In this document: in pieces, positions 2,816-23,347 of the stretch
Position numbering within the stretch: position 1 is the first letter of the stretch
Layout: each line of letters begins with the position of its first letter
DNA from: a virus
IMG/VR virus record: IMGVR_UViG_3300006916_000211
Coordinates: 1-30,920 of that record
DNA: 30,920 bases
Strand: one strand, 5' to 3'
The notes under the pieces: model-generated
The model's database searches: none
Told to the model about the DNA's origin: nothing
The model's input: only the letters and a program-made list of their open reading frames with translations
Translations under genes and position numbers: made by a program

Positions 2816-3005
2816 GTTTGTTATTATAAGCCCCGATGGATTTCCAATACATCCAACAAATACATATACAGAAAAAGAAATAACAACAGCGTTTGTTAAT
2901 TGGAAATCTAACTATCAGGATCAAGGGTACTACTCATCGGTGTCCTATGGGAGAATACAATTAGATGAATTAGAGAAGTATTGTGAAATAATTAAAATAA
3001 AATAA
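2808..3005 (+). CDS. Conserved phage hypothetical protein (65 aa)
   Basis: The sequence MSKFVIISPDGFPIHPTNTY, a helix (TEKEITTAFVNWKSNYQDQG), then YYSSVSYGRIQLDELEKYCE and a terminal strand IIKIK. The motifs F-P-IHPT and QGYYSS-x-x-GRI-x-LDELE-x-C belong to a small protein family I remember from Bacteroidota phages, without a known function. It is probably an alpha/beta fold with exposed conserved aromatics. It starts inside the end of the previous gene directly at a perfect A-rich box and is followed after one base by the next small gene. Confidence 0.7.
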   Translation: MSKFVIISPDGFPIHPTNTYTEKEITTAFVNWKSNYQDQGYYSSVSYGRIQLDELEKYCEIIKIK

Positions 3006-3162: not shown

Positions 3163-3379
3163 ATTTACAACATATTACAATCCAGGATTATCAAGCGGTT
3201 GCATGCAAAAGATAAGAGAGTATGTAACACCATCTATGGTATCAATAGATGAAACATCAGGACAATACTGTATAAGTATGATAACAGAATTACTTGATTC
3301 AGAAATAATCAATGACGATGATGACATCAAACTAATCAGTAAATACATTAAAGATAAAATAGATTATTTAGAATTTTAA
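3155..3379 (+). CDS. Hypothetical protein (74 aa), last gene before terminator
   Basis: I favour ATG 3155 (AACAATGGCTAA), overlapping the previous stop by eight bases, as at 3998; an in-frame ATG at 3143 would add four residues. The product MAKFTTYYNPGLSSGCMQKI continues with a Ser/Met-rich middle (REYVTPSMVSIDETSGQYCI) and an acidic C-terminal half (SEIINDDDDIKLISKYIKDK). Two cysteines are present. No domain is recognised. It is followed within five bases by a Rho-independent terminator, so it closes this operon. Confidence 0.65.
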   Translation: MAKFTTYYNPGLSSGCMQKIREYVTPSMVSIDETSGQYCISMITELLDSEIINDDDDIKLISKYIKDKIDYLEF

Positions 3380-3383
3380 TTTT

Positions 3384-3411
3384 AAGGGGGCATTTAGCCC
3401 TCTTTTTTTTT
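3384..3411 (+). terminator. Rho-independent terminator
   Basis: A 7-bp stem (AGGGGGC at 3385-3391 with GCCCTCT at 3397-3403, one G-T pair) has a five-base loop ATTTA and is followed by a run of nine T (3403-3411). It lies right after the TAA at 3377-3379. Confidence 0.9.
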
Positions 3412-3480
3412 AAAATATCTATCAGATAGAGTTTACTATCATCATGCATATACAAGCAATTACAAATCAAAACAAATCAT
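3412..3480 (+). promoter_or_regulatory. Probable promoter/operator region of the second small-gene operon
   Basis: The 69 bases between the terminator and ATG 3481 hold a perfect inverted repeat TCTATC-A-GATAGA (3418-3430), whose right arm pairs again with CTATC at 3436-3440, giving three alternating arms. An A-rich leader CAAAACAAAT (3468-3477) precedes the ATG. Because a terminator lies just upstream, a promoter is needed here, but I cannot point to a convincing -7/-33 Bacteroidota promoter. The repeat may be an operator. Confidence 0.4.
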
Positions 3481-4005
3481 ATGTCAAATAATCTTGTAGA
3501 CAAACTAGAAGAAAAATACAAAGAGCTCATAGAAGAATACAAACTAGAGCTTAAACACTTCAAAAGACATTACGCTAGTAATGGATATGAACACTATAGG
3601 TTTCAAGTATATTCTAGGACGCACCCTGCTCTTGAATATTGTACATCAGATGAAGTATGTATATCACTGAATCAATCAGGTAAAACGCTTATTCCAGCAT
3701 TAACTGCAAAACTACATTCAGTATGGAAATCAGTAAAAAATACAGATCACCTAGTACCTGAAGTATTACTAAATACTTTTATGGACTACTTAGCATCTAA
3801 AAAAAATAGAGAGTTGGAAGACCGTAAGGGTATATTCTACAGAGACGACAATAATGTTTTCATAGTAAGATTTGGTGGCAAAACGCTTATTAGTCAAACA
3901 CCAGCAGCTCAACAGCAAATACAAAACAGAATTGACTCTATTAAAGCTAAAGGTCACACTATACTAAATGCAGATTACTTAAAAGAAATAGGATACGATG
4001 TGTAA
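3481..4005 (+). CDS. Hypothetical protein with N-terminal coiled coil (174 aa)
   Basis: The first gene after the terminator. Residues 1-30 are a charged helix likely to form a coiled coil (NLVDKLEEKYKELIEEYKLE). The rest is mixed alpha/beta, with HYRFQVYSRTHPALEYCTSD, a region LNQSGKTLIPALTAKLHSVW, a basic helix (ASKKNRELEDRKG), and a strand pair FIVRFGGKTLISQTP. SGKTL looks like a P-loop end, but the GxxxxGK(S/T) context is missing, so I do not call it an NTPase. The same words GKTLI occur twice (about residues 67 and 132), perhaps an internal duplication of a short hairpin. No family recognised. It is the most likely candidate in this operon for a regulatory or structural role, without proof. 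Confidence 0.75.
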   Translation: MSNNLVDKLEEKYKELIEEYKLELKHFKRHYASNGYEHYRFQVYSRTHPALEYCTSDEVCISLNQSGKTLIPALTAKLHSVWKSVKNTDHLVPEVLLNTFMDYLASKKNRELEDRKGIFYRDDNNVFIVRFGGKTLISQTPAAQQQIQNRIDSIKAKGHTILNADYLKEIGYDV

Positions 4006-5305: not shown

Positions 5306-5341
5306 ACAAAAGAGGGGAGTTAATAGCTCCCCTTTTTTTTA
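5306..5341. terminator. Bidirectional terminator between convergent operons
   Basis: A hairpin with a 12-bp stem: 5308-5319 (AAAAGAGGGGAG) pairs with 5327-5338 (CTCCCCTTTTTT), one G-T pair, loop of seven bases (TTAATAG). T runs follow it on the + strand (5333-5340), and T-rich sequence (CTTTTGTTTT) follows it on the - strand. The T tract on the right reaches the TAA stop of the 1,953-aa gene, so it serves both operons with no spare sequence. Confidence 0.9.
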
Positions 5342-8300
5342 TTCTTTCCCACCTTCGATGGTCTTAGCCCACTTCCAGTCCCTTGGTAAATACTGTAAAT
5401 TACTTTGTATTTTAGCAGCAGGATCTAATACCATACCATTAAAACCATAAGACCTTCCTATTATGTTGTATATTTTCCAAGCACCTTTGTTCTGCCACCA
5501 ATAAGGTCCAGCTTTTTTACCAATTAAAGATTTATCTCTATTTTCATGCACTCTGTACAATCTATTCCCCTCAAGCATTTCTTCTATTTCTTCTTCTTCT
5601 GTTAAATAAGAATTATCAGCAGCAAACTTAAACGCTCTAGTTAGTTCGGCAGGAATACCACCAAAGAATGGAGAACTACCTGTCATATAACCAGAAACAG
5701 TATGTAATAAATCAGGAGCAAAGAAAGTTTCATTTTCTCTTTCTACTTCAATTAATAAATTAATTAAATGCAGCTTTGTATATTCTTTTAAATCAAATCC
5801 CTTACTAGCAACATCATCATCAACCCACGGCAAATCGGGTAATTTAACATTATCAGACCATTTTTTAAATTCAATGCCACTCCTACCACCTAATTCATCA
5901 ATTGTAAATTCTTCATCATCATCATCACTTAATAAACCAGTAAAAGTCATAGTCAATAAACTACCTATTGTGTATCTAATAAGTTCTGTCATTAAAACAG
6001 CAGAAACTAATTGAGCTAAAGCTACGTATTGACGATAACCTATATTTCTTTTTTTGAATCCAGAATAACCGCTTTCTGCTATATCTAAACCAATCTTCAC
6101 AGCATCAATAAAGTATCCACGTTCTGCTCCACCTGTAAGCCAGTTTCTTCTTCTTTGAAGTTTTATTTTTTGATACGTAGGTGCTGATTTATCATATCTA
6201 ATTTTAGCACCATACCTATACATAGACATAGGTACAATAAATTTCATCATAGAAAATAAAACTCTACCTATTATAGTACGAGATATAAAATCACCTTCAT
6301 GATTTTTACCACCCATACCAACAGTTTTTAGCAAATAATCTTCTTGAGTTTTTATTAACTCTTTGATTTTTTTTCCTAATACTACATTACCGCTTTCATC
6401 ATAGCTAATTTTAAAATCTTCAGGTACACCTTCTTTAGTTTGAACTTTGCCGTCAACTACTTCTACAGCATCATCTAACGTAGTAGACTTACCGTTAAGC
6501 TTAAACTTAAACTTTTTATTATTCATAAAAGCATAAGATGCCTGATAGTTAAAAGAGTGAGTAAGTGTAGTTCTTAAGTAATAACCAATCCTAAAAGAAA
6601 CTAAATCATTTAGCATACTTCTGTTACCAGCATCCGCCTGCATTTGTAAATATTTATCAGGAGATGCATTCAAAATATCCATTAATTGCATTTGAGCAGT
6701 CTTCTCTCTAGCAGAATAACCTCTAGACTGATAATGGAGTAATGTTTTATTTGCTTTAGCTGCACCTACAACAAAATCAACAGGCGTTACATAATTTTTA
6801 AAATCCCAAAGTAAATAAAAAGCTTGTATTTGACCAGAAGCATAGTTTCTTATACCAGCTACTGGATTCAACATAAAGAATTTTCTACTTGTCCATTTAG
6901 AAGCTTTATCAACCCATTTACCCCATACACTACCTTTTTGACCTCCTTTTAATTGTATACCTCTAATGTATCTATCAACTATATCAGAAACATTTTGAGC
7001 AGTATTTCTATCTTCTTTATTTTTACTAGCAAGAGATACAAAAGAAGATTTAAGCTTAGCATTTTTTAAAGTACCATCGCTATTAAATTCAGTTAAAGTT
7101 CTCTGCACAGTATTAGCATAGGGAAACAACTCATTAGCAACTTCAAACTCTTGAAGTGAATGCTGATACCTTTGCATTGTTTCAAATATATCAGTACTTA
7201 ATTCATTGAGAGGTAATCCTTCCCAAACACCAATAACTGGCCTATCTACTTCATTAATAGTTTTAGAAGTAAATGTTTCACCAGATCTTTTATCAAATCT
7301 AACACCTTCGTCAAAATCATCAGCTCTTGTTGTAAACATGTCACCCATTCTGTAAACACGTCTTCTCCAATAACCTTTAGTAAAATAATCTTCAGCTCCA
7401 TTCTTTCTCAACTTCGGATAAGAAATATAAAGCTTTTTATTATTAGGTTTATTTTTTTGATTATCTAAATGCCAATCTTTTACATAGTTTAATAAGTCCC
7501 ACATAGGTCTGTTATTATTAAACATATCATAGTAAGATTCATTTCTATACTCTGATGATTCTTTAGGCAACCATTGACCTTTATTAGTTTTATTAGCGAC
7601 TACCAAATTACCATTGGCATCTACAAAATCTTTTTCTATTTCTTTAGTTTTAAAATCTTCTTTAACTTCTCTATTTTGAAAGTTAAATCCAGGAATTCTT
7701 AATGTATTATTTCTATCTCTTAATAATTCAATATCATTTCCAAATTCATCTTGTAAAGAAAAAGTATTATAAGCATCTTCATCAAGAGGTTGTGAAAATT
7801 GCCAGACAGATGTATTTCTCAATATAGTTACGGTAATATTTTTACCATCAGGTTGTTCTTCTTGTCTTTCAATTTCAATATGATTGTTTTCTATAAACGT
7901 ATCAAAGTCAGAATTTATTCCGCGTAACTCATTTAAAAAAGATTTATTATAACCTTTAAACAATTCTTTTATATGTTTTTCTTGAACAATATAATTGTCA
8001 TCTAAATTAAAATCATCATCGCTTATTTTTATAAGAAACTCATCCATTACTTCCTTAAAGCCTGAATCTGAATCATAAAACTCCTGAAAAGTATTTAAAT
8101 AATGTATTGTAAAAACACTTTGACTCATTTCAGATAATCTTTTTTCTATATCAATTAATTCTTTTTGATCTTCTTCACTAATTTTAAAAATAGAAAGACC
8201 TTCTCGCATTGTATCTAAATAAGAATCCAAAAGATCTTGTTCATAAGACTCTAAAACGTAGCCTTCAGAATAACTATTCCATAATTCAAAAAACTCTTCT

Positions 8301-11200
8301 AATTCATTACCTGTTAAACCTTTTCCAATAGCAGAATACAATTCTTTTTTAGATGTTTCAATTGCTTGTTGTAAATCACGCAATAAAATCTGTTGACTAG
8401 GAGTAAGTTTATAACCATTATACTGACCAGACTCATCTCTAGTCATTCTAATTATTTCATAAACTCTCTCATAGATTTCACTTAAATCGACTATCTTATC
8501 ATTTTTTTCTTTTATAGGAGCAAGTATTTCTTCTCTTCTTTCTAATAAGTATTTTCTTTCTTCATAATACTCATCAGAAATAGAAACTGTAGTATTTCTA
8601 TCTATCCATTGATTTAGTAATTCTTGTTGAACCTCTAAACTTCTAGGTATTTGATTACCATCGGCATCAATTTCATATTTAGAATCTTCAACAGCTTCAT
8701 TATACTTAGCTTGAAATAAAGCAGCATCTACTGTTGATTCATAAAACTCTTTTCTTCTATCGAAGTACTCTTTAAGTCTTTCAGCTATTAATAAATCATT
8801 CCCAGTTTTATAATCTAAGTTCTCATCAAGTAAACTTCTTAATCTAATTAATTCAGCAAACTTATCTGCACGAACTCTATCAATTTCTGGATTACTAATA
8901 GCATCAATAGGATCACCTAAGTAATTTAATTCCTTATAGATATCATCCATAAGCATTCTAGCTTGAGTACCTATATCATCTTGATACAATAAAGCTTCTA
9001 CATCATAAAAAGAATCTACATTTTTCTGAACAAAATTGTTTTTAAGTTCAAAAAATAACTCATTTTGAGCTTCATATAAAGCAGTCTTAGTTGTTGTAGT
9101 TTGCAAATTTACATATTTAATACTAGCTTCTTTTATTTTTTCTTTTAAGAATTTTAAACGACCTTCAAAATCTTTAAATGCTGATTTAAATTGCCATTCT
9201 AAATTTTCTTCTAACTCTAATTTATTATTTAATTGGCCAACATCAACCAACTCACCTAGTTCTCTTCCTAATTTTGGAGAATTTAAATGCCTTCTATTTC
9301 CCCAACCAGCAGCTTTCAATAAATCATTTAATTTATTATCAGCTAATAATTCTGCTTGACGAGCATTAGATTTTAAATTAACTTCATCTAAATATTTTTT
9401 TAAAAAAGAACTAAAAGAACCAACAATAGTATCTTGATTATACAAATAAGATTCAAGGCTGTTATTTAACATTTTTAAAATACCAGCTCTAGCTTCAGGT
9501 GCAAAAAATAATTCTTTGAACTCTTCTCTAGTAATTGAAAATCCTTTTATTTTTTTATTAAGTAATTCTAATCTTCTATTTCTTTCAGTAGTATTAAGAC
9601 TAGATCTAGCTTCTAAAGCGTTAAACTCAGAAAGTTCTTCTGGAGTTAATCCATAATACTCTGTATGAGCTCTTATATACTCTTGATCAGTTCCTGATTC
9701 TTTTAAAACGCGTAATTCATTTTCATAAAAAGATTGACCTTTATCAGATGTTTCTTGAATATGATCATACAAAACATCAATAGTAGATGAAATTTTCTTT
9801 TCATTAACAGCAGCATACAACTGATCAACTTTAAATTTAATTTCAGAAAGTTTTGTTGTAAGCTCTGATGTTATAAGACTAGGATATTCTGTTTTATTTA
9901 TACCAGCTTTTTCTAAATAATATAAATATTGTTCTAAGATTTCAGAAATAGTAAATAATTGTTTTATATCAGATAAACTATCTAAATTATTATTTCTTAA
10001 TTCTACAAACCTATCATTTAAAATATCTGCTATTTTTTCAATTTTTAAAACCTGACTAATAAATGTATTCAACCTATTAGCAATTTGCTCATTAGTTAAT
10101 ATTTGAGACTCTGTTAATTCAGAAACAAGTTTGCTTTTAGATAAACTTTCAGGTATTGTTTTACCAGCCATTTGTCTTAAAATCAAATTCATGTTATCTA
10201 TTAAACCATTTGCATCATCGTTAGTTAAATCTGCGTATATAGGAGAAATAGCGTTTTGATTTTTTAAATATACGCTTTGGTTTTCAATTGTTTCAGCAAG
10301 ATCATTTATTAAAGCTTGAAACTCTTCCTTAACTTGTTGATTAATAGCATCCATCTGAACATCATACTCTTTCATTAAGTATACAACGTCATCGACACTT
10401 AAAAAATCTGTATCTAGATTAATAGTATCCATATTAATCATAGTTACAAAATCTTTTAATTTAGTTTTACCAGACAGATTGCTAAGATCAATTGATTTAC
10501 CAAAAAATTTTCTTAATATCTTTTTAATATTATAAAATATATTACCTATTACAGTTCTATTCTTAATCTCTTCAGCATTAGCTTCTGTAAGGGCCTGAAC
10601 AACTATTTCTTCTTTAAACTCTTGTGAGTCTTTTTCATAATTATTTTCATAGTCTCTAACAACTCTATCATAAATAACCTGCCCTTTATTTGTATTTATT
10701 AAATCATTATACAGTTTATCAAATAACTCAGCATTATCTTTTGCTAATACTTTAACAACAGGATGAGCAAACTCATGAAAAACATTATCAGAACTATATA
10801 AACCGTCAGCAAAGTATACAGTTCCTTTAGAATAAAAAGCATTTATTTTAGATCCAGGTTTATTTTCATAAAAAATCACTGGAACATTCAATCTAGTAGA
10901 AAAATCTTCAATTGCTTTTTGTGAATTCTCAGAATTTGTTCTAGCAAATATTTGTTCAAAGCTAGAACGAATATCTTTTTCTGATAATTCTAAATCTGAA
11001 GTATCATCATAAACCTTAGATTCAATATTTAAATCTGCGGGTTTTGTAAATTCATTTTCTAAATCTTGAATAACTGCTCTTGGAGATCTTACTAAACCGT
11101 TATGTCTAACAACATCCGCCATTGCTGCATTCTCACCAACTATTTCAGAAAGTATATCAAACTTTCTTTTATCCTCTTCATTTGTAAAACATACAGCCAT
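5339..11200 (-). CDS. Giant polyvalent virion protein: N-terminal zincin, helical middle, C-terminal membrane-associated region (1953 aa)
   Basis: Residues 105-205 form a zincin-type metallopeptidase domain: strands VPVIFY and AFYSKGTVYFADG, then VFHEFAHPVV with H142, E143 and H146, and a possible third ligand at E197/E198 (FKEEIVVQAL). This strand-strand-HExxH order is typical of zincin domains in large polyvalent phage and plasmid proteins. About 250-1250 is charged and mostly helical, with long coiled-coil stretches. The C-terminal third contains FMLNPVAGIRNYASG (about 1443), a motif seen in large polyvalent-protein-associated regions, and hydrophobic segments near 1635-1655 and 1718-1757 ending in SDDDDEE. 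This fits a cargo protein that is ejected and meets the host envelope. The start ATG is one base after the upstream stop. The C-terminus (EGGKE) lacks the Cys ending of the other giants. Fold of the zincin is likely; role in ejection is inference. Confidence 0.8.
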   Translation of the reverse strand: MAVCFTNEEDKRKFDILSEIVGENAAMADVVRHNGLVRSPRAVIQDLENEFTKPADLNIESKVYDDTSDLELSEKDIRSSFEQIFARTNSENSQKAIEDFSTRLNVPVIFYENKPGSKINAFYSKGTVYFADGLYSSDNVFHEFAHPVVKVLAKDNAELFDKLYNDLINTNKGQVIYDRVVRDYENNYEKDSQEFKEEIVVQALTEANAEEIKNRTVIGNIFYNIKKILRKFFGKSIDLSNLSGKTKLKDFVTMINMDTINLDTDFLSVDDVVYLMKEYDVQMDAINQQVKEEFQALINDLAETIENQSVYLKNQNAISPIYADLTNDDANGLIDNMNLILRQMAGKTIPESLSKSKLVSELTESQILTNEQIANRLNTFISQVLKIEKIADILNDRFVELRNNNLDSLSDIKQLFTISEILEQYLYYLEKAGINKTEYPSLITSELTTKLSEIKFKVDQLYAAVNEKKISSTIDVLYDHIQETSDKGQSFYENELRVLKESGTDQEYIRAHTEYYGLTPEELSEFNALEARSSLNTTERNRRLELLNKKIKGFSITREEFKELFFAPEARAGILKMLNNSLESYLYNQDTIVGSFSSFLKKYLDEVNLKSNARQAELLADNKLNDLLKAAGWGNRRHLNSPKLGRELGELVDVGQLNNKLELEENLEWQFKSAFKDFEGRLKFLKEKIKEASIKYVNLQTTTTKTALYEAQNELFFELKNNFVQKNVDSFYDVEALLYQDDIGTQARMLMDDIYKELNYLGDPIDAISNPEIDRVRADKFAELIRLRSLLDENLDYKTGNDLLIAERLKEYFDRRKEFYESTVDAALFQAKYNEAVEDSKYEIDADGNQIPRSLEVQQELLNQWIDRNTTVSISDEYYEERKYLLERREEILAPIKEKNDKIVDLSEIYERVYEIIRMTRDESGQYNGYKLTPSQQILLRDLQQAIETSKKELYSAIGKGLTGNELEEFFELWNSYSEGYVLESYEQDLLDSYLDTMREGLSIFKISEEDQKELIDIEKRLSEMSQSVFTIHYLNTFQEFYDSDSGFKEVMDEFLIKISDDDFNLDDNYIVQEKHIKELFKGYNKSFLNELRGINSDFDTFIENNHIEIERQEEQPDGKNITVTILRNTSVWQFSQPLDEDAYNTFSLQDEFGNDIELLRDRNNTLRIPGFNFQNREVKEDFKTKEIEKDFVDANGNLVVANKTNKGQWLPKESSEYRNESYYDMFNNNRPMWDLLNYVKDWHLDNQKNKPNNKKLYISYPKLRKNGAEDYFTKGYWRRRVYRMGDMFTTRADDFDEGVRFDKRSGETFTSKTINEVDRPVIGVWEGLPLNELSTDIFETMQRYQHSLQEFEVANELFPYANTVQRTLTEFNSDGTLKNAKLKSSFVSLASKNKEDRNTAQNVSDIVDRYIRGIQLKGGQKGSVWGKWVDKASKWTSRKFFMLNPVAGIRNYASGQIQAFYLLWDFKNYVTPVDFVVGAAKANKTLLHYQSRGYSAREKTAQMQLMDILNASPDKYLQMQADAGNRSMLNDLVSFRIGYYLRTTLTHSFNYQASYAFMNNKKFKFKLNGKSTTLDDAVEVVDGKVQTKEGVPEDFKISYDESGNVVLGKKIKELIKTQEDYLLKTVGMGGKNHEGDFISRTIIGRVLFSMMKFIVPMSMYRYGAKIRYDKSAPTYQKIKLQRRRNWLTGGAERGYFIDAVKIGLDIAESGYSGFKKRNIGYRQYVALAQLVSAVLMTELIRYTIGSLLTMTFTGLLSDDDDEEFTIDELGGRSGIEFKKWSDNVKLPDLPWVDDDVASKGFDLKEYTKLHLINLLIEVERENETFFAPDLLHTVSGYMTGSSPFFGGIPAELTRAFKFAADNSYLTEEEEIEEMLEGNRLYRVHENRDKSLIGKKAGPYWWQNKGAWKIYNIIGRSYGFNGMVLDPAAKIQSNLQYLPRDWKWAKTIEGGKE

Positions 11201-11833: not shown

Positions 11834-14800
11834 TTAACAGTTTTTATTTTGAGCATTCTTTATATCTTCTACTGTATAGTTTGCCATTCTAACAAAAGTA
11901 TACTCTATAGCATATGGATATTGACCTACTAACCTATCAGTAACATCTTTAGTCCATCCTTCTTTTTGCCAAGTAGCATCTTGATACTCTTGTGTAAATT
12001 TAGCAACATTTGTGATTTTAACAACCGCTTTTCCTGGAAACTTTCCAGTACTATCGAACATTAATACCTCTTGACCTACTAAATCTGATACCTTATCTAC
12101 ATTAGCAGCTTTCATATAACGAGCTATTTCTGTTTTGCTGCGGGTACTTCTAGTTCTTGAACCATCAACAACCATTTCCATAGTAGACTTGCCTTTAAAT
12201 TGTGGCATCATAGTTCTTGCTTTCCAAGTATTTCCATCTTTATAAGTTGAACCATCAGCAAAATTTTGTTCTATTACTAATGAAGGTATACCTGTTTCTA
12301 TTTCATTTAAATTTCTAAATGGAGAGATAAAACCATTTATAGTAATATTATTAGTTCTCTTTAATAGATTATTGTTGTCTACAGTAAAGATCACATTATT
12401 TACAGAAAGAGATGGATTAACAACATAGTTATATATTTTACCATTAGTTGTGTTTTTTAATCTAATAGAAACATGTTCAGGATTTGTTTTATTTCTAGAA
12501 ATATTTAAAACTTCCGTTTGAGATTTAACTACTTCATCATTTATAACAAATTCAACAAATAAAACATCACCTTTTTTAACTGGTTGTGCATCTCTACTTC
12601 TTTCTCTATTTACTCTTTGCTGACTATCAGCTTGACGTTTGCTTATTACTTGCGCTCTTATTTCCATTAAAAATCTTTCTAGGTAAACGCTTTGCAATCC
12701 AGAACCTTCTACAATAGGAGAATTAGATGACGCTATCAAAACTTCTTGAAACTTATTTCTAAATCCAGGAGCTTGATCATTTGTAAAGTTTATAAAAGAC
12801 ATAAAATTAGCTTTAGCCATAGCATAACCAATCCCATCATTTAATTCATTTTGATTTAACTTATTTAGTTTATTGTTTAAATCTTCAGAGTAAAATGATT
12901 TTCCAAGAACCTTGCTTACAGAAACAGATGGTTCATTAAACTTATGTAAGTCTACTGCTTGTTCTTTATATGTATCATTTACAACTTCATAATATTTACC
13001 AAGATCAGTATATCTAGCCATTGGATAAAAACCTTTTTCTTTTAAATAATCTAATGCTAATTGATCTACACCAGAAGCATCACCAATAAAGAATGTAGTT
13101 ACTCCAGCTTTTAATGCTTGATCTATATATTTTTTATGATAATCGTTAAATGTTTTTTCAACATTAGCTTCCCACTGTTCTTTCTTCATTACACCCTTAT
13201 AGGCATTTTCAAAAATACCTGATCCAAATATCCAAACTTTATCGGAAGATTTAAATTTAATCCTGTTACCTGCTAATTTAGTTGGATACTTTTTATTAAT
13301 AGAGTTTACATAGGCCTTAGACGAAGATTGATATTTAGGTGCTGCACCTTCAGTTGCTCTACCTATAGCTACAGTAGAACTATTTGCCATTGCCTCATCC
13401 TTAACTGAATATTTTTTTAATATTTCAGAATCAGATATAGAAATATTATTACTTGTTTGTCCTTTAGATACAATTAATGCTTTAGCATACTTTCCGCTAT
13501 TGTCAATATTTAAATAATTATTGAGGGCTATATCCAACTCTTGTTGAGAACCATTTTCTGGTGCAATAAATTTACTATTACTTAAGATAGCTATTTTTTC
13601 ATCTTGAATACTTTCTAGGTATTCAGTATTAATACTACCATCATCATTAAATATATCATCTACATTTAATTTTACAAAACCAGCAGGTATGTTTTTAAAT
13701 GAAGAATATACTCCTACATTCTGATAAGACAATGCTGTGTTTATAACACCATCTTCTACATTCTCTACAGTATCGGAAATGTAGTTTACACCCTTACCTC
13801 TAGTTCTATACGCATTCTCATCTTTAGATACTCGATCAAAAAGTTCAGCAAATACATTTAGATATGGTACATCTAATTCTGATAATTTTTGACCTTGATT
13901 TAATAGTTTAGAATACTTATCTAATAACTCAGTAATTTTATTAACGTCATATGCACTATCAATAGATGTAGAAAAAACAGACTCATCTATAATTCTAGTT
14001 AAATTATATTTACCTTTAGTTAATCCAGATTGCATTAAAGCATAATTAGTAAATTGACTAAAGAAATCAGATACTTCTGGAATAGGACTATTAATTAATT
14101 CAATTAAATTTTCTTTATAAGCTCTTATTATACTTCCATCATCATCAGTTAATTTATCTAAAAATAAATTAGCATTTTTTTCAAATAAATCATATCTCAA
14201 ATCCTGAAACAACTGATTATGTAAAAGACTTTCTCTATGTTTAACTTGAATATTTTTAAAGATTGTAGCAAATCCTAAAGTATAATTAAACATTGCTACG
14301 TTATTTCCAGAATAAAACAAAGCCATCTTTTTAATAGTTCCTTTTTTAGTAAAAGATCTATCACCGATGTTGTTAAAATAATAAAACTTGTCTTTAAATT
14401 CTTCATCAGACATTTCTTCAACATCAGCTTCTATTCTTTGTCTTTCTATTTCATATCTAATATAATGGCCATTAGTAGGAAAAACATCTAATATACCAGT
14501 TAAACCTAAATTATATAACTCATCATCAATTGCTTTTTCAATTAAATTAGAATTTACAGACACATTAAAACCATCAATTGATATAGCTTGTTCTTGTTCT
14601 AAATTTTCTGAAATTCTAAAATCTTTATAAGAATTATTTCTATAAATTGAATTTTGAAACAAAAACCAAATAAAGTCGTTCTTAAAGTTATTATAATGGT
14701 ACGCTTTATCAACTCCTTTTGGTCTAAAAGAACTAATTGATTTTTTAATTACAACTGAATTATTACGAACTCCAAAATACTTACTCAATAAATCTAATAT

Positions 14801-17800
14801 AAATTGATCATTTGCAAATTTACCAACAGGTGTATCTTTAATTTCTTCAAACCAGTCATTTGCATAACTTTTTTCTTTACTTTGTATTTCAATTGTTTGA
14901 TCAATTCTTTCCTGAGCTTGAGATAAATTTTGAAGCTTTTCAGTATCAAATTTATTTACCATAGTAAATTCAGTAATGTCGTTAGACATATCCTCTATAG
15001 CAATATAGTGAGCAAGTAATTGAATATCTCTAGTATTATACTTTCCTTTTTCTTTAGTTAAAGCAGCATCTTTGAGCTCTTTAGATGTAAAGTTCTTGTC
15101 GATAGTTTTATTTACAGTATTAAAAGTAAAAATACCAGAAGGAAATAAATCTTGATATTTATCTGTCATTCTTGCTCTTGCTTCTTTAGTAGCTTGACCT
15201 TGACTTAAAATAACTGGTTTCTTAGCATCAGTAGTTAAGTTTGCAAAAACACCTGACAACTCTGCTTTCATTTTATTATACTCAATAACAAGTGGATGTG
15301 AAGATAAGAAAACAGCATCGTTTACTTTAGCTCCAGCCATTATCATAAATAATAATTGAGGAGTATTTTGTAAGTTACCTTGTACATTATAAATCCATGC
15401 TTTTTTAGCAACATCCACATATCCATTTATTAATTGACCTATAATATTTGAAATTGTAATACCATCTTTATTATTCAAATTAGATAAACTTACGTAACCA
15501 TCTAATTTTTGAGAATCAATTTTTAAAGAATAATCTTTATATGCTTTTATAATAATAGAAGCTTTAGTTAATTGAGCATTTTCTAATGGAGATAAATTTT
15601 GTTTAGCACCTAACTCTTTGGCTTTTTCTAAAGCTTTAGTAAATTCTATTTGTTCTGCTTGAGATACACCATTTAACTTAGCACCCATTTGAGTAAAAAT
15701 AGCATAGAATGTAGATGTTACAGCAGCTATACCTAATGAACGTAAACCAACAGAATTTTCTTGATGTTTTTGCAAATTATATCTATAATCATATATAGTT
15801 GTACCTGCAATACCATCACCAACTTTACCTTTACCTCTATTGTATTTATTATAAAAAGAAGTTTCGTTTAATTTTTTTTCTAATTCATTAGCAATATCAT
15901 CAAATAAATCTGTAGAGTTAGGTACAAGTAACTGATCTGCAGTATTTGCAAAGCTAACTCTTTCAGCAAATAATAACATTAATTCGTTTTGCAAACCTTT
16001 AATAGATTTTTGATTTAGCTTTCGTAAAGCTGCATTTTTTTGCTTGGTTAATTTATTTCTCTTATCCTCTAAAGATTTTATTTTTTTATTTTCTTCAGCA
16101 AATAATTTAGTTCTATCTGTCTCACCAATTGTCTCTAAAGCAATTTCATCAATACGATCATTTATTTCTTTATTAATAGAGTTTCTTTCTTCAGATAGTT
16201 CATTTATTTTATTAGTAGATTTAATATGATATTCTTTTTGCTGAACGCGAGTATATTTTTTATACTTACCTATATTATTGTATACTTTAGATGCTTCATC
16301 TATTTCAGCATCTATTTGACTATTTAATTCATTTCTTTGTTCTACTAAATCTAAAAGTTCATTACTTACAAAATCTTCAATTTCTTGAAAGTTTTCAAAG
16401 ATTGTTGTTTTGTTAGCATATAACTGATTGATATTAGTATTTAAAGTTTTTAATTCTTCATTAATTTTTTCTAACTGATTATTTAATTTTTCATCAGAAT
16501 CAGTTATTGATTTATCATAAGTAATTATTTCTACTCCTTCACCACGATAATAAGCAATGTTTGGGAACATCATAAAAAGCTTATCGATATCATAATCAGA
16601 ACCAGCTTTGGCTACAATTTCAGAAGGTAGAATAATTTTATTACCCTCTATCGGAGGCAAAAATTCTTTAACCACCATAGACTCAATAGAGTTTTCTGCT
16701 TGAGTTGGAATACGTGGACCTACTAATCTTAATTTATCTTTGTGTTCTTCAAAAAACTTTTCATCCTTTAAAGCTTCATTTAATCTAGCAAGTGATGCAT
16801 TAAAATCAAATTCTTTTTTTGTTTTACCAGTTTTTTCATCAACTACCTTATTATATTGAGCTATCTGACTTCCTTTATAATCAAGGTATAGTAAATTCAT
16901 AAAGTCGCCCTGTAGCGCGATTTTTACTTGAGCTTCAGCAACTCTAAAAAATCCTTTTTTATTTTTAGCAGGTTTTCCATTTTCATCAAGAACATGATAA
17001 AAAGAAAGACCGTTTGTACCATATTTAAATACATCTTCTTTACTTGCTAACTCAGGTTTAAATTTAGATTCTGCCATTGTACCTGGCATTTGAACTAATC
17101 CTTCACCAGCAAACTTAAGGTTTCTTAATTCATTATCTACTAAAGTCATCAAGACCTCTTCAATTTTAGATGAATTTAAAGAAAAAGATAAATCAGAAAT
17201 TAATTCACCAGAACCATCTGGTTTTAAAATACTTGCTACTTCTTCAGGTAATAAATTTTTATTAGTTAATTCTTGTTTAATATATTTTGCTAATTCTACA
17301 GTAGAACCAATATATTCTTTAGAACCATCTTTATTTACTTTTTCTTTTAATCCAATATTTTCCAGTAAATTATTTCTAGAAAAAGTTCTAATCTCATCTA
17401 AGACTGCATTATATCTTTTAATCCAAGAATAACTTTTAGATTTTTCTCTTTTTTCTGATTCGGATAATTTTTTCCAAGCTGTTTTAGTTCCTGAATAATC
17501 TGCAGGCTTACCATCACTATACAAACCAAGTGTAGAAATTTTACGCATCTGACTTGGTAAAGATATATATCCTTTAAATCCTTCAGACAAGTATACTTGA
17601 CTTTTTAAATGTTTTACATGAATTAAATTTTCAGTAATAGGATTGTTAGTTATTACCCTACCGTTTTTAACATCATAAATATTATCTAAAACAGGTTCTG
17701 TATTTAAATTTTGATTAGTAATAGTACTTATAGTACCTAGTTTAGAAGCGGAGCTCATAGCAATATAATCCCAATTCTCCTCCATCATTCTATTATGTAA

Positions 17801-20800
17801 ATCTTCTAATGGTGTATTTGCAATAGCTGTACTAGGAATTAAAGGAATGACAGAGTATTTGTGAAACGCATAAGGAGTTAATCCAATTTCTTTAAGTGCG
17901 TTATTAAATAAAGGACCGTAATACTGAAACTTTTTAATTGGAAAAGTATTTTTTATTTTACGTTGATCTATATTTTCTCCTTTCAACAAAGCCTGGTAAA
18001 CAGCTTCTTGGCCAGTAGACCATTCACCAATCGAATCAAGTAAAAATCTATATGTATCAAATTTTATCCAAGCAGCACCATCTGCTTCTTCTTGTTTATT
18101 ATAAGCCTTAATATCAAAGCCAAAAAGTTCTTTGTATGTATCAGCATACACAGACTCAGAAATTGCTTCAGCGATAATTCCTGTACGTAAATAACCTTGA
18201 TAAACTCTAGGTTGAAAAGTTTCAGGTAAATTTTTATTTTGTTTTTCTTCTACACTTAAAGATTCGTAATGTTTTTTAGCAAATGCATCTTTATTATATT
18301 TTTCAGAATTAAGATGATTAAACCAGGAATCTTCATTTAAGAAAATATCTCCAGCTGATATTTTACCAGCAATACGTTTATGATAATCTTCACCTTTTAT
18401 ATTGTAAGAAGAAGGATCACCTAAAAATAAAGATTGATATTCTAAATTGTTGTAAAAATTATTTAAAATAAATAAATGAAATAATCTATCCTTAGTAACT
18501 TTTATATCTTCGTCTACTGATAACTGATACTCAGAAACTAAATTATCAGATAAGATAGCTTTTTCTCCAAACTCCTTTAATAAATCCTCAGTTCTAAATT
18601 TAAAATAATCTAATAACTCAGTTTCTAAAACTTTCTTTTCTTCAATAGTTAATATATTATCTAGTTGAAAAGGTTTTAAAATTAATTCACCTTCTGCATT
18701 TTTTAATTTTTCTAATTTGCTTTTAGTTTCGTCAGTTAATATATTTTCAAATTTAATAAATGTAGATCCTCTGGATAAGAACTTTTGATCAAATGCAACA
18801 GATTCTAATTCTCCTGTTTCTATTTTATCTTTTAATTGTTTAATTCTATTAATACGAACCAATTCAGATTCTATATGCGATTTAAATAATTCGTATATAA
18901 TTAAACCTTGAGGCCCTTTTAGATCTTTATAATTCTCACTTAGTAATGTAAATACTTCCTCATTACTAAAAGCAGTTTTTTGCAATCTACCTTTTTTAAT
19001 TGTAGGCATTTGTACAATTACAGATGTTGACTTTGCCTCACTACGCATTATCTCTTGGTAGTTCTCTATAGTCGTATAAAGGTCTGTTGTAAACTTTGAA
19101 AACTCGTCTGTAGAAATACTTTTAACACCTTTATCTAAAGCACCTTCTTTAATTACAGATCCTACTAAATTTTCAGTATTAATAGACATGTTAAAATTTC
19201 TTTCACCGTAACTTGGATTATTTTCATCTAAGTCTAGATTAAACATTTTAACAAATGTATTATTAGCTGCAACTTCAGGATTTATTTCAATATCAAATTG
19301 CTGCATACCAGGAATAGTAATCAAACTAAAATAGTCTTCTGCAGAATTAATTAAAGATATCTCTACACTTAAAGAGCTATGTTTAGGTTTAGTAGATTGG
19401 TTTTCTCCTTCTGGAGTTTTTTGCATAAAAGTAGAATAGTCATCACTTCTAACTCCTGCAAGATTAGCTAATTGATTTAAATAACCAGATAAATTATTTT
19501 GTTTTTGATTCTGATTATTTTTTACATAAGTAAATGCTTTAAATAAATCTGATAATGTTTCAGGAAATTTAAATTGATCGTATGCTGTAACTCTGTTATT
19601 TATAGACTTCCAAAAAGAATCTATAAATTCAGCATCAATAAAATTAGATCCTTTTCTAATTTCTTCATTTACTTCGACAGTGTTTGGTAATATAATACCA
19701 AATATCTCTAGTAGTTTTACAGGTTCAGCTTTATACCTAACCATTGATTTTGTATTTGGTTGAGGTGTTTCAAAAACTCTTCCTGCATAATCTACATAAA
19801 CAGTTTCAGAAAAATCTTCAATAATAGCATCAAAATAAATCTCATCTTTAGACAAATACCCAGACAACTCTTCCGATGGATTATCTAAGTTATATTGATA
19901 CTCAAAAGACCAATCTCTTTTAATAATAGAAGTTTTAAATTGAACAGATGTTAGTTTAGATGTAATTGATTTTACTTGAGGGACTTCACCCATTTCTAAT
20001 TCAATTTCATCAAGTTTTTCTATTTCTCTTTCTAATTCAAAAGTTCTTAACCTTCTTGTAGCTTTAGCAAATGATTTCCAAAAGTTTCTCCACTGTTCAA
20101 TTTCTGCTTTAGTAATACCTTCTTTTTCAGGATTACCTAAACGAGTAAGTAAAACTTTAATAGATTGATTTTTATCTTCAATTGCTTTTAAGGAATCATA
20201 CATCTCTTTCATTGTAACATCCTTATAAGTAGCATTAGCTATTTGGAAAATAATAGAATTTAAATTAGTCAAAGAAGGAACTTCAAAAGAATTGGTAATT
20301 AGTTTACCATCGCTTCTATATTTTGGTAAAGTAGTTATAAGTTCTTTAGTTCTAGCATCAACTAGCTCCGACATTGGTTGTTCTGCACCTGTTCTATCAA
20401 ATAATAAATTTAAATTTTCAGATGTTTGATTTTGTAGATCTTCTTGGAATCCAGCTTCTTCTAACTGTATTGTAGAATAATTATTTAAAAATACTCCTAA
20501 TACAGTTTCTGAATCGTTTAAAAATTCTTTTACTGGCTGACTAACATCACCAAAATTTTTAATTATTTTTTCCAGAGACTCAATTAATTTTTCATTAACA
20601 GAAGAAGGATTTTCTTTTAAAGACTCTAATTTATTTTCAAACTTTGAAAGTATATAGTCAAAAGCTTTTTCTAAAAGTTCTGGATTATTTTCTAAAACAA
20701 ATAAACCATTAGAGTGAGGTGTTTCTCCTTTCTTTAATTCATTTAATTGATCAACGTATTCTTTACTTAATTTTTTATAATCTTTGTCGTTGTAAGGTAT

Positions 20801-23347
20801 CCTAGCCATTTCATTTAAAAGCTCGGCCATCTTTGTAGCTGTTGCTACATTTGATGTTGGATTAACAACTCTATCAATAAAACTATATAATAAAGAATTC
20901 ATTGACTCTACAGCCAAAGAGATTTCATTGTAACTTAATTCATTTTCTATTTCAAAACTAGAAAAATATTCTATGTTTGGTTTTACATTTTCAAATTTTG
21001 AAAAATCTACATTACCTTCATAAATATTATTAAAAATTGCATTTATTTTAGGAGATAAAGAATTTAATAATACAACCTCAGAATATGTATGATTACCAAA
21101 TAAACTTCTAAGCCTTTCTAAAAGCATTTCAAAGAACTGAGCAATTTTAGATTTTGGTTTGTTGTTATACTTAGATCTATTTCTAGCATAAGCTCTAAAT
21201 TCTTCAGCCAACCACTCCTCTAAAGTTAATTGGTCTTGGTTGTTATTTACATCAATAGAGTCAAACGAAAAGTTTTTCTTTACACCATTAACAATAACCT
21301 CTGCCGACTTACCTTTATTTTCATCAAGTATTTCCTGATATAATAGCTTACGCTCTTGTGTAGAAAGTATACCTCTAACATGAGCATGAAAAACTTCATG
21401 GTAAATTGCTGTTCTATCAGAGCCTTTCCATAGACCAATAGTATTACCAACAAATGATGCTACAAAAGACTTACCTTTTTCATGTATATCGCTGTAAGCT
21501 GCTACCTTAAGAATTGATCCCCAACCAGATTCTTCTAACCACTCATCAGCTCTTACTTCTTCTTCAGTAGTTGCTTGTGGAACATTTTTACCATTTCTTT
21601 TATTAGCTTCTTCAATAGTCATGTAATACTCTTCAAACTCAGTAGTATCTTCTTGAGTTCTATTTTCAGGAGTATAAAATGCTAAATAAGGAGAGTATGC
21701 TCTTATTTCATTTTTAGAATTTGGAATTATTGTTGTTTCTGTAGTTTCTTTTATTCTTTCAATTAATGGAACTTCTTTAGTTATAACAACATCATTATTT
21801 ATACTTGATACAACTTCAACAACAGCACTATTTATATCTGAAACACCTAAATAAACTTTAGTCCCAACACTTGGTTTTTTAGCTATAAATTTATTTCCAT
21901 CTTTATCTACAACAATCTGTTGATTATACGTAACTTTATCAATAGAGTCAACGGTAACATTTCCAACAGGCACGGAAGCTCTATATATAAATGGATAATA
22001 AGTAGAAATAAATTTTTGAAATCCAGCTTTAATATCTTCTGGATTATCTATTTCATATTTTTTACTTCCAAATTGAACTTCACTAACTTTACCTTTAGAA
22101 TAAGAAACTTTAAATATTGGATTAAAAGATGCATTAGCATTAAGATCAATGTACTGCTGAATTAATTTATTTCTTTTATCTTTAGTTAATTCTTGACCTT
22201 GTTGATCTTTTAAATTATTATTTGTTAATAGCTCTAATAAAAAATCTATTTGTTCTTTTGGCAAACTTTCTAGCGGTGCTGAGTACAATGGATAAGATTC
22301 ATTACTAAAAGGAACTCTTACCATTGGAACAATACTACTACCTTTAGGTTGTAATTCAATAGATAATTTATTTTGATTACTTAAAGTAGAAACTTTTGTA
22401 CGAACTGAATTATTTCTTTCAATAAAACCATAACTACTAGCAGCTAGATCTATTTCAAAAAGAACTTCCGAACCTTTTTTAACTTCGTTAATGGCAGCAT
22501 TTAAAGAATTAAAATATTCATTTTGCTCAGTAAGTATTTTTTTAGAAGCCTCTTTACTAGTTAAATTATTTATAGCCTGCTCATAAGCAATTAATGTTTT
22601 TAAAGTTTCTTTTTGCGCATTCTTATTTGTTACAAGATCTAATATTGCTAACTTACCTTTACTAGAGTTTGTAACATTACCAGCATCATCAAAATAAACA
22701 TCATTACCTTTGTTATCTACAATCTTTAAAGAAGCATCTCCTTCTTCTAAAATAAGTTTTAATTTAAAATTATTTTGATTTGATGTAGCCATGATAGCTC
22801 TACTAACTGCATTAGCTAATTCAAACTCAGGATTTGTTGCTTTTTCTGAATATGAATTTGTCTCTTTATTAAAAATAATTTCGTTAGGGTGAGATGTGTT
22901 AAATACAAGTTTTCTTGCACTATAACTATCGTATTTACGATCAGGTTTATTAATAACAAAATCAACATCAACTTCAATTATATTTTTAAAGTCATCAATT
23001 ATATTTTGAAAATTATTTAAATTATTTTCTTGAGATGCTTTATAAATATTTTTAGCATTTTCATTTATTGTTGATTCTAGCTCAGTATTATCTATTCCAA
23101 TATTATCTGCTAAATATGATTTAAGTATTTGAGGTACTACAGTTAAATGTTGTAAAATAATCTCATCATTACTTATACCCTCAGCACTAACAGGTTCTGT
23201 TAAAGCATCAAAATCTTTTAAAGTTTCTTTATATAAAAAATTTATTATTTCTTCGTAAGTAGAATTATTAGTAACAACACTAGGAAGTTTAGATTTAAAA
23301 TAAGTTCCTAAAAGTTTTATTGATTTATCTGTAATACAATTTCTCAT
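11834..23347 (-). CDS. Giant virion single-chain RNA polymerase with zincin and SLOG-like domains (3837 aa)
   Basis: Two double-psi beta-barrel signatures mark a one-polypeptide RNAP related to cellular beta/beta' and to crAss-like phage virion RNAPs. Beta'-like: RIPTQAENSIE (from R2212) to SDYDIDKLFMMFP, with D2251, D2253 and D2255 as the Mg2+-binding triad; the 39-residue spacing from R-x-PT mirrors beta' (R-A-PT to NADFDGD). Beta-like: YIAMSSASKLGTIS with K1869, followed by a LPSQMRKI segment. A coiled coil lies at about 2285-2440, then GLQNELMLLF and VGLRSLGIAAVTSTF. N-terminal: an HExxH zincin (H650, E651, H654; possible ligand E715/E716). Near 3370-3460: VWIFGSG and FFIGDASGVDQLALDYLKEKG, a SLOG-like nucleotide-binding domain. 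It is much longer than the roughly 2,200-residue RNAP of phage phi14:2. Expected role: packaged, injected, transcribes early genes. RNAP identity is strong; the other activities are inferred from motifs. Confidence 0.85.
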   Translation of the reverse strand: MRNCITDKSIKLLGTYFKSKLPSVVTNNSTYEEIINFLYKETLKDFDALTEPVSAEGISNDEIILQHLTVVPQILKSYLADNIGIDNTELESTINENAKNIYKASQENNLNNFQNIIDDFKNIIEVDVDFVINKPDRKYDSYSARKLVFNTSHPNEIIFNKETNSYSEKATNPEFELANAVSRAIMATSNQNNFKLKLILEEGDASLKIVDNKGNDVYFDDAGNVTNSSKGKLAILDLVTNKNAQKETLKTLIAYEQAINNLTSKEASKKILTEQNEYFNSLNAAINEVKKGSEVLFEIDLAASSYGFIERNNSVRTKVSTLSNQNKLSIELQPKGSSIVPMVRVPFSNESYPLYSAPLESLPKEQIDFLLELLTNNNLKDQQGQELTKDKRNKLIQQYIDLNANASFNPIFKVSYSKGKVSEVQFGSKKYEIDNPEDIKAGFQKFISTYYPFIYRASVPVGNVTVDSIDKVTYNQQIVVDKDGNKFIAKKPSVGTKVYLGVSDINSAVVEVVSSINNDVVITKEVPLIERIKETTETTIIPNSKNEIRAYSPYLAFYTPENRTQEDTTEFEEYYMTIEEANKRNGKNVPQATTEEEVRADEWLEESGWGSILKVAAYSDIHEKGKSFVASFVGNTIGLWKGSDRTAIYHEVFHAHVRGILSTQERKLLYQEILDENKGKSAEVIVNGVKKNFSFDSIDVNNNQDQLTLEEWLAEEFRAYARNRSKYNNKPKSKIAQFFEMLLERLRSLFGNHTYSEVVLLNSLSPKINAIFNNIYEGNVDFSKFENVKPNIEYFSSFEIENELSYNEISLAVESMNSLLYSFIDRVVNPTSNVATATKMAELLNEMARIPYNDKDYKKLSKEYVDQLNELKKGETPHSNGLFVLENNPELLEKAFDYILSKFENKLESLKENPSSVNEKLIESLEKIIKNFGDVSQPVKEFLNDSETVLGVFLNNYSTIQLEEAGFQEDLQNQTSENLNLLFDRTGAEQPMSELVDARTKELITTLPKYRSDGKLITNSFEVPSLTNLNSIIFQIANATYKDVTMKEMYDSLKAIEDKNQSIKVLLTRLGNPEKEGITKAEIEQWRNFWKSFAKATRRLRTFELEREIEKLDEIELEMGEVPQVKSITSKLTSVQFKTSIIKRDWSFEYQYNLDNPSEELSGYLSKDEIYFDAIIEDFSETVYVDYAGRVFETPQPNTKSMVRYKAEPVKLLEIFGIILPNTVEVNEEIRKGSNFIDAEFIDSFWKSINNRVTAYDQFKFPETLSDLFKAFTYVKNNQNQKQNNLSGYLNQLANLAGVRSDDYSTFMQKTPEGENQSTKPKHSSLSVEISLINSAEDYFSLITIPGMQQFDIEINPEVAANNTFVKMFNLDLDENNPSYGERNFNMSINTENLVGSVIKEGALDKGVKSISTDEFSKFTTDLYTTIENYQEIMRSEAKSTSVIVQMPTIKKGRLQKTAFSNEEVFTLLSENYKDLKGPQGLIIYELFKSHIESELVRINRIKQLKDKIETGELESVAFDQKFLSRGSTFIKFENILTDETKSKLEKLKNAEGELILKPFQLDNILTIEEKKVLETELLDYFKFRTEDLLKEFGEKAILSDNLVSEYQLSVDEDIKVTKDRLFHLFILNNFYNNLEYQSLFLGDPSSYNIKGEDYHKRIAGKISAGDIFLNEDSWFNHLNSEKYNKDAFAKKHYESLSVEEKQNKNLPETFQPRVYQGYLRTGIIAEAISESVYADTYKELFGFDIKAYNKQEEADGAAWIKFDTYRFLLDSIGEWSTGQEAVYQALLKGENIDQRKIKNTFPIKKFQYYGPLFNNALKEIGLTPYAFHKYSVIPLIPSTAIANTPLEDLHNRMMEENWDYIAMSSASKLGTISTITNQNLNTEPVLDNIYDVKNGRVITNNPITENLIHVKHLKSQVYLSEGFKGYISLPSQMRKISTLGLYSDGKPADYSGTKTAWKKLSESEKREKSKSYSWIKRYNAVLDEIRTFSRNNLLENIGLKEKVNKDGSKEYIGSTVELAKYIKQELTNKNLLPEEVASILKPDGSGELISDLSFSLNSSKIEEVLMTLVDNELRNLKFAGEGLVQMPGTMAESKFKPELASKEDVFKYGTNGLSFYHVLDENGKPAKNKKGFFRVAEAQVKIALQGDFMNLLYLDYKGSQIAQYNKVVDEKTGKTKKEFDFNASLARLNEALKDEKFFEEHKDKLRLVGPRIPTQAENSIESMVVKEFLPPIEGNKIILPSEIVAKAGSDYDIDKLFMMFPNIAYYRGEGVEIITYDKSITDSDEKLNNQLEKINEELKTLNTNINQLYANKTTIFENFQEIEDFVSNELLDLVEQRNELNSQIDAEIDEASKVYNNIGKYKKYTRVQQKEYHIKSTNKINELSEERNSINKEINDRIDEIALETIGETDRTKLFAEENKKIKSLEDKRNKLTKQKNAALRKLNQKSIKGLQNELMLLFAERVSFANTADQLLVPNSTDLFDDIANELEKKLNETSFYNKYNRGKGKVGDGIAGTTIYDYRYNLQKHQENSVGLRSLGIAAVTSTFYAIFTQMGAKLNGVSQAEQIEFTKALEKAKELGAKQNLSPLENAQLTKASIIIKAYKDYSLKIDSQKLDGYVSLSNLNNKDGITISNIIGQLINGYVDVAKKAWIYNVQGNLQNTPQLLFMIMAGAKVNDAVFLSSHPLVIEYNKMKAELSGVFANLTTDAKKPVILSQGQATKEARARMTDKYQDLFPSGIFTFNTVNKTIDKNFTSKELKDAALTKEKGKYNTRDIQLLAHYIAIEDMSNDITEFTMVNKFDTEKLQNLSQAQERIDQTIEIQSKEKSYANDWFEEIKDTPVGKFANDQFILDLLSKYFGVRNNSVVIKKSISSFRPKGVDKAYHYNNFKNDFIWFLFQNSIYRNNSYKDFRISENLEQEQAISIDGFNVSVNSNLIEKAIDDELYNLGLTGILDVFPTNGHYIRYEIERQRIEADVEEMSDEEFKDKFYYFNNIGDRSFTKKGTIKKMALFYSGNNVAMFNYTLGFATIFKNIQVKHRESLLHNQLFQDLRYDLFEKNANLFLDKLTDDDGSIIRAYKENLIELINSPIPEVSDFFSQFTNYALMQSGLTKGKYNLTRIIDESVFSTSIDSAYDVNKITELLDKYSKLLNQGQKLSELDVPYLNVFAELFDRVSKDENAYRTRGKGVNYISDTVENVEDGVINTALSYQNVGVYSSFKNIPAGFVKLNVDDIFNDDGSINTEYLESIQDEKIAILSNSKFIAPENGSQQELDIALNNYLNIDNSGKYAKALIVSKGQTSNNISISDSEILKKYSVKDEAMANSSTVAIGRATEGAAPKYQSSSKAYVNSINKKYPTKLAGNRIKFKSSDKVWIFGSGIFENAYKGVMKKEQWEANVEKTFNDYHKKYIDQALKAGVTTFFIGDASGVDQLALDYLKEKGFYPMARYTDLGKYYEVVNDTYKEQAVDLHKFNEPSVSVSKVLGKSFYSEDLNNKLNKLNQNELNDGIGYAMAKANFMSFINFTNDQAPGFRNKFQEVLIASSNSPIVEGSGLQSVYLERFLMEIRAQVISKRQADSQQRVNRERSRDAQPVKKGDVLFVEFVINDEVVKSQTEVLNISRNKTNPEHVSIRLKNTTNGKIYNYVVNPSLSVNNVIFTVDNNNLLKRTNNITINGFISPFRNLNEIETGIPSLVIEQNFADGSTYKDGNTWKARTMMPQFKGKSTMEMVVDGSRTRSTRSKTEIARYMKAANVDKVSDLVGQEVLMFDSTGKFPGKAVVKITNVAKFTQEYQDATWQKEGWTKDVTDRLVGQYPYAIEYTFVRMANYTVEDIKNAQNKNC
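12990..13245 (-). other. SLOG-like nucleotide-binding domain in the RNAP giant
   Basis: Residues about 3370-3455. A first strand with glycine loop (KVWIFGSGIF), a helical part, then TFFIGDASGVDQLALDYLKE with the G-(D/G)-A-x-G-x-D-x-LA pattern characteristic of YspA/DprA-related SLOG domains, which bind nucleotides or nucleotide-derived ligands. Confidence 0.6.
16030..16495 (-). other. Coiled-coil insertion directly after the RNAP catalytic motif
   Basis: Residues about 2285-2440 of the RNAP protein are a run of heptad-like charged helices (QLEKINEELKTLNTNINQLY, then QRNELNSQIDAEIDEASKVY and SKVYNNIGKYKKYTRV). It starts about 30 residues after D2255. Confidence 0.7.
16585..16716 (-). other. 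RNAP beta'-like double-psi barrel and Mg2+-binding loop
   Basis: These bases encode RNAP residues from R2212 (RIPT) to D2255 (DYDID). Cellular beta' enzymes have NADFDGD at this place; here the last variable residue is Ile instead of Gly. Confidence 0.85.

Follow-up and report, generated by a model that had tools for sequence, protein, structure and literature searches.

Giant phage polymerases and putative nucleotide-signal domains

A described counterpart of the protein discussed here is g066 of the crAss-like phage phi14:2, a virion RNA polymerase (RNAP) of 2,180 aa with its catalytic DxDxD motif at residue 1361, annotated as 'Catalytic RNA polymerase subunit' from MS/MS virion proteomics. 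A second point of reference is the class of polyvalent phage proteins, multidomain polypeptides which have been proposed to be injected together with the DNA and between which conflict domains are shuffled (Iyer et al., 2017, PMC5512222; the words crAss, SLOG and NADAR do not occur in that text). Viral SLOG, NADAR and Macro domains have been proposed to counter ADP-ribose signals, and phage SLOG domains to be able to serve as the sensor part of a fusion with an effector (PMC9503650).

Fusions of DprA-like domains, which are of SLOG type, to virion RNAPs already stand in public records, under other names, although the preliminary description of the DNA analysed here knew of no link between SLOG domains and a crAss-type RNAP. 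The RefSeq product name 'DprA-like DNA recombination-mediator protein' conceals polymerase giants in some cases: YP_010113266.1 of cr130_1 and YP_010112503.1 of cr109_1, both so named, are whole crAss RNAPs. Downstream of DxDxD, and with TAG read as a sense codon, the cr130_1 protein carries a DprA-like segment (HSGGAYGADTAW) followed by NADAR (2e-7) and DUF7831 (8e-7); in the available part of the cr109_1 protein, DFDID occurs at 2155 and is followed by HSGGAVGSDT at 3004. In Klebsiella phage Pylas, too, the virion RNAP, here of the N4-like type (YP_009882040.1; gp65, locus L065), contains a DprA-like domain (HSGGAVGSDTVW), at about residue 989 in the stretch that was translated. We found no paper in the open-access literature that discusses such a fusion. 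NC_055901.1 gp79 and NC_055892.1 gp53 are RNAP giants with the DprA-like name whose frames are open only if TAG is taken as sense.

The polymerase of the window

The stretch of DNA analysed as a whole, hereafter the window, is the 30,920-nt record IMGVR_UViG_3300006916_000211. Its longest gene encodes a protein of 3,837 aa:

11834..23347, minus strand: open reading frame of a crAss-like (Crassvirales) RNA polymerase giant of the DxDxD type (from its translation and from tblastn and blastp matches to phi14:2 g066)
16583..16600, minus strand: SDYDID, residues 2250-2255, the DxDxD catalytic motif of the RNAP (aligned with residues 1316-1373 of phi14:2 g066)

The label of RNAP giant, given in the preliminary description, is borne out by both lines of evidence. 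In tblastn the protein matches crAss RNAPs, including phi14:2 g066, with E-values down to 5e-17, and in blastp it aligns with g066 over two stretches (E 1.9e-13 and 4.4e-11); SDYDID falls in the region aligned with the g066 stretch that holds the DxDxD motif of that protein. Both the motif and the homology that characterize a Crassvirales virion RNAP are thus found in the window. The two proteins share a homologous polymerase body, but g066 is much shorter and the domain described below was not found in the phi14:2 genome, in a survey run without a positive control. By analogy with g066, annotated from virion proteomics, and in view of PMC7886860, the window RNAP is probably also carried inside the virion. 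Three more giant genes flank it (5339-11200, 23347-27327 and 27330-30920, all on the minus strand); blastp of these against phi14:2 g065-g067 gave no convincing match.

A conserved domain in the polymerase polypeptide

Attention had been drawn earlier to two motifs in the C-terminal part of this protein, VWIFGSG and IGDASGVDQLA. The pair is real, could be located exactly and is conserved in relatives. The extent first assigned to it (12990-13245) lies in the right region but is too small; the features are as follows:

About 12968..13426, minus strand: the domain, residues ~3308-3460, compact alpha/beta, diverged from the other members of an unnamed family of phage domains (AlphaFold2 models, 17-sequence alignment, hhalign)
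13382..13405, minus strand: VKDEAMAN, residues 3315-3322, a conserved helix just before strand 1 (VAIG)
13217..13237, minus strand: VWIFGSG, residues 3371-3377, strand 2 and first glycine loop
13055..13087, minus strand: IGDASGVDQLA, residues 3421-3431, strand 3, second glycine loop and helix start

Relatives were gathered with the whole protein, an alignment of the domain and two RNAP-core alignments as queries. The domain is present in 17 distinct IMG/VR contigs (individual loci bear L numbers below), and in 16 of these DxDxD lies in the same open frame; the remaining contig, L033, is a fragment that begins inside the domain. The lineage is one of environmental crAss-like phages with the domain built into the RNAP polypeptide. 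All 17 aligned sequences retain the pattern D-x-V-W-[IV]-F-G, and 14 of them, namely the window and 13 of its 16 relatives, also G-x-A-x-G-[IVM]-D. The second loop reads GNYSGID in L009 and has been lost in L010 and L022; as it is also absent from the wider family described below, GxAxGxD need not be a catalytic signature. In a comparison with three relatives (overall identity ~35%), invariant residues, counted per 20 positions, are as frequent in the stretch that holds the domain as in the active-site region of the RNAP.

Three more distant RNAP relatives (L012-L014) lack the domain in their sequence as available, and two scans of genome contigs returned no cellular relative. Nor was the domain found in 13 named crAss-like genomes, phi14:2 among them, in a survey run without a positive control. 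Just ahead of it, phrog_17486 (unknown function) weakly matches window positions ~13390-13575 on the minus strand (residues ~3258-3319, E 0.0024), and this segment is also conserved in relatives.

Predicted fold

AlphaFold2 models the domain alone, from the 17 sequences, with a pLDDT of 88.9 and a pTM of 0.85, and in a longer model the pLDDT of the domain core reaches 95-98. The order of elements is helix, strand (VAIG), helix (SSSKAYV), strand (VWIFG), long helix, strand (TFFIG), helix, strand and antiparallel strand. A strand followed by a helix occurs three times in this order, before a fourth strand and a hairpin that closes the fold. The helix-joined strands are probably parallel, which would bring the AIG, FGSG and GDASG loops together on one edge of the sheet. 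What had been proposed as a Rossmann-like domain within a crAss-type RNAP is therefore a real and conserved entity whose glycine loops follow successive strands and whose predicted fold is probably Rossmann-like.

Foldseek gave no match to the model at E<=0.001 in PDB or BFVD, and neither phmmer nor profile searches against solved structures produced anything credible. Searched directly against Pfam, PHROG and NCBIfam, the domain returned sub-threshold hits only; Cyc-maltodext_C, PHR, T4_Cef and others were dropped as chance matches of this kind. Matches to a Riemerella phage (E 0.2) turned out to lie at the beginning of a protein resembling SPP1 gp7 and were likewise set aside as chance.

Kinship with a phage domain family

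A second, different domain in the tail of the L022 RNAP led to a family which we call KFIG-SST-GERE after its motifs (KFIG...SST..Y...DVVFVS...YNIGERE). Its members are proteins of the Vibrio phages Kuja (YP_009854075.1) and SUMAE (XQU59769.1), this second domain of L022 itself, and 12 IMG/VR loci, most of them in long open frames and including the L022 contig; one of these long frames also carries NADAR. The Kuja and SUMAE proteins stand alone, each adjoining a ribonucleotide reductase gene (L064 2459-2869 and L075 601-1005), a neighbourhood that may hint at a nucleotide ligand.

The window domain family aligns with KFIG-SST-GERE over 113 columns in hhalign (96%, P 3.4e-9). An earlier 12-sequence alignment of the family gave 94%, whereas two segments of the polymerase reached 0.1-0.3% and the family in reverse 0.1%. 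The match, profile to profile, spans the full length of the domain. The two are co-linear throughout: a KD helix, a T-x-x-I-G strand, an SST..Y helix and a Y-x-x-x-D-V-x-F-V-S strand are followed by an A-G-x-T strand, G[YF], a final helix and a G-x-W/Y end. They differ in the second loop, which is TDN...YNIGERE in KFIG-SST-GERE and G-x-A-x-G-I-D in the RNAP branch, and in the helix between the two loops, which is longer in most RNAP members. Because the RNAP branch lacks the YNIGERE-type motif before the last helix and has AxGIDxMA there instead, we regard the window domain as a divergent relative rather than a plain member. Scans with Pfam, NCBIfam and PHROG yielded no model for KFIG-SST-GERE in the first two and no convincing one in the third, and the motifs above now provide a description of this family. 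The L022 giant contains two distantly related copies (residues 2953-3086 and 3458-3592): the first is decayed and occupies the conserved position, the second is of the YNTGEK type and belongs to the tail.

Modules around the polymerase body

The polypeptides of several relatives continue behind the domain with modules recognized by Pfam: DUF7831 in L008 and L027 (9e-37 and 2e-34), NADAR in L037 and L043 (2e-12 and 2e-13), a 2OG-Fe(II) oxygenase in L010 and L022 (1e-11 and 2e-19) and a P-loop AAA_33 kinase in L021 (2e-19). The conflict reading suggested for this locus at the outset survives in another form, through the NAD/ADP-ribose-type domains that accompany the domain in relatives; the window's own tail gives no Pfam match at E<=0.01 and has no recognized NAD/ADP-ribose domain. 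Several conflict-type domains in one polypeptide, the hallmark of polyvalent proteins, are seen at the domain level in the relatives and in cr130_1, next to a window tail with no named Pfam domain. The window RNAP resembles polyvalent proteins in being multidomain and in its presumed co-injection and shuffled modules, but it is a crAss-type RNAP that serves as the chassis in this case.

One module of the window tail could be delimited by comparison:

11888..12274, minus strand: C-terminal tail module, residues ~3692-3820 (RTRSTRS...YPYAIEY; blastp to L044)

It is 52.7% identical over 129 aa (E 2e-40, blastp) to residues 736-853 of L044, where the corresponding module immediately precedes the same domain. 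That a module from the far end of the window protein adjoins the domain upstream in L044 indicates, at the level of sequence, that modules move around the polymerase body. By eye we take this tail module to be ASCH/PUA-like. The profile phrog_2072 (unknown function, with a VFVFGSN...-type start) was seen in four RNAP tails (L010, L021, L043 and L008), in L008 overlapping the DUF7831 match.

Possible roles of the domain

The reading we prefer, although tentatively, is that the domain, a ~150-residue Rossmann-like member of an unnamed phage family built into the RNAP, binds a nucleotide ligand as part of an injected counter-defence or host-sensing module. The RNAP polypeptide would enter the cell together with the phage DNA, and the domain would bind a nucleotide-type ligand at the loops that follow the presumably parallel strands (AIG, FGSG and IGDASGVD). 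Together with tails of the NADAR/DUF7831 kind, it could sense or process NAD/ADP-ribose-type signals raised by the host defence, or alternatively tune the polymerase to such signals. A role in counter-defence finds support in the cr130_1 RNAP giant, which follows the same logic with its DprA-like, NADAR and DUF7831 domains. Against it weigh the window tail with its lack of a recognized NAD/ADP-ribose domain, the fold searches that ended without a significant match, and the 13 named crAss-like genomes in which the uncontrolled survey did not find the domain.

The domain might instead be a true but very divergent SLOG member, from the YspA/DprA side of the superfamily, that senses or hydrolyses a base-ribose nucleotide. 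This was the original assignment; the searches do not support it and we do not class the domain as SLOG, a deep relationship being unlikely though not negligible. To the eye, the domain shares with YspA/YAcAr (PF10686) and DprA/Smf proteins a glycine loop after one strand and a GxAxGxD-like loop after the next, the latter being a SLOG feature that follows the second core strand. The order of strand and GSG, strand and GxAxGxD, then helix, resembles that of DprA and YspA. Aligned with DprA-like phage proteins in hhalign, the domain gives a local match (11%, P 0.003) whose 45 columns cover the second loop together with its helix, and other virion RNAPs do carry DprA-like domains. However, none of the SLOG profiles (YAcAr, DNA_processg_A and others) matched the window at E<=1 or the relatives at E<=0.5 to 1, and the IMG/VR records that carry the domain contain no Pfam YAcAr match. 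These missing matches say little, because HMMER profiles also fail to tie the phage DprA-like proteins themselves to solved structures; YAcAr reaches those proteins weakly, with an E-value of 3e-4 that is below the cut-off. Other points against SLOG membership are the second half of the DprA-like domain, whose RN and GGTxxA are invariant in our DprA-like alignment (A10) and absent from the window domain and its relatives, and the second loop, which is not conserved within the domain's own family. The model examined for a SLOG fold turned out to be a confident alpha/beta structure, probably Rossmann-like, and no SLOG structure is among the matches listed by Foldseek or VIA, a listing from which absence excludes nothing. 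A circular permutation, with the second half of the DprA-like domain corresponding to the first half of ours, aligned at 0.7% and was dropped.

The domains in cr130_1, cr109_1 and Pylas compare with that of the window as small putative nucleotide-signal domains within giant RNAPs, which in cr130_1 and cr109_1 also lie C-terminal of DxDxD. They differ from it in their HSGGAxGxD...RN...GGTxxA pattern and show no detectable homology to it over the length of the domain.

Besides SLOG membership, the chief competitor of our preferred reading is that the domain serves the polymerase itself as a structural or regulatory element, such as a clamp or a nucleic-acid- or nucleotide-sensing part, with no function in counter-defence. 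It is about as strongly conserved as the RNAP core, and it keeps a nearly constant distance from the catalytic motif while the tail behind it varies: in the window it begins ~1,060 residues C-terminal of DxDxD, ahead of the fast-changing tail, and in most relatives the spacing is about 1,050-1,120 residues (959 in L043, 1,272 in L018 and ~1,360 in L020). In L044, however, the domain lies ~1,770 residues N-terminal of DxDxD within a single open frame, adjoining the tail module. A polymerase part would also hardly be expected as the stand-alone relatives seen in Vibrio phages, nor to go unfound in phi14:2 and the 12 other named crAss-like genomes of the same uncontrolled survey. We judge this explanation fairly improbable.

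A degenerate class I methyltransferase-like Rossmann domain would account for the closing antiparallel hairpin of the model and for the best VIA alignments, which are to Rossmannoid methyltransferases (Z up to 5.6, rmsd 4.5 A over 122 residues). Values of Z under 8 are within the stated background of that tool, Foldseek gave no significant E-value and there is no sequence match, which makes this origin very improbable; we take the methyltransferase fold matches to reflect a common alpha/beta arrangement. That the motif pair arose by chance in a linker has a negligible probability, contradicted as it is by conservation of the domain in 17 contigs and by a high-confidence fold, and with a strict pattern that occurs once in the protein and in none of 2000 residue shuffles against 27 of 2000 for a loose one (both patterns were written after the motifs had been seen, so that these counts merely bound chance).

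A bolder extension of our preferred reading, which we regard as improbable, is that injected counter-defence cassettes have repeatedly found a docking place around the RNAP catalytic body, and that at least two unrelated RNAP types, crAss-like and N4-like, independently took up nucleotide-signal domains there. The window domain would then be the constant member of the cassette, a new NAD/ADP-ribose sensor or hydrolase; if this were true, the start of phage transcription would be coupled to the disarming of host signalling.

Finally, the N-terminal half of the RNAP polypeptide contains HEVFH in the window (21386-21400, minus strand, residue 650) and HEAWH in L044 (residue 1121), motifs that we take to be zincin-like. 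Genes adjoining the RNAP in other crAss phages are annotated as ZnMc or zincin proteases.
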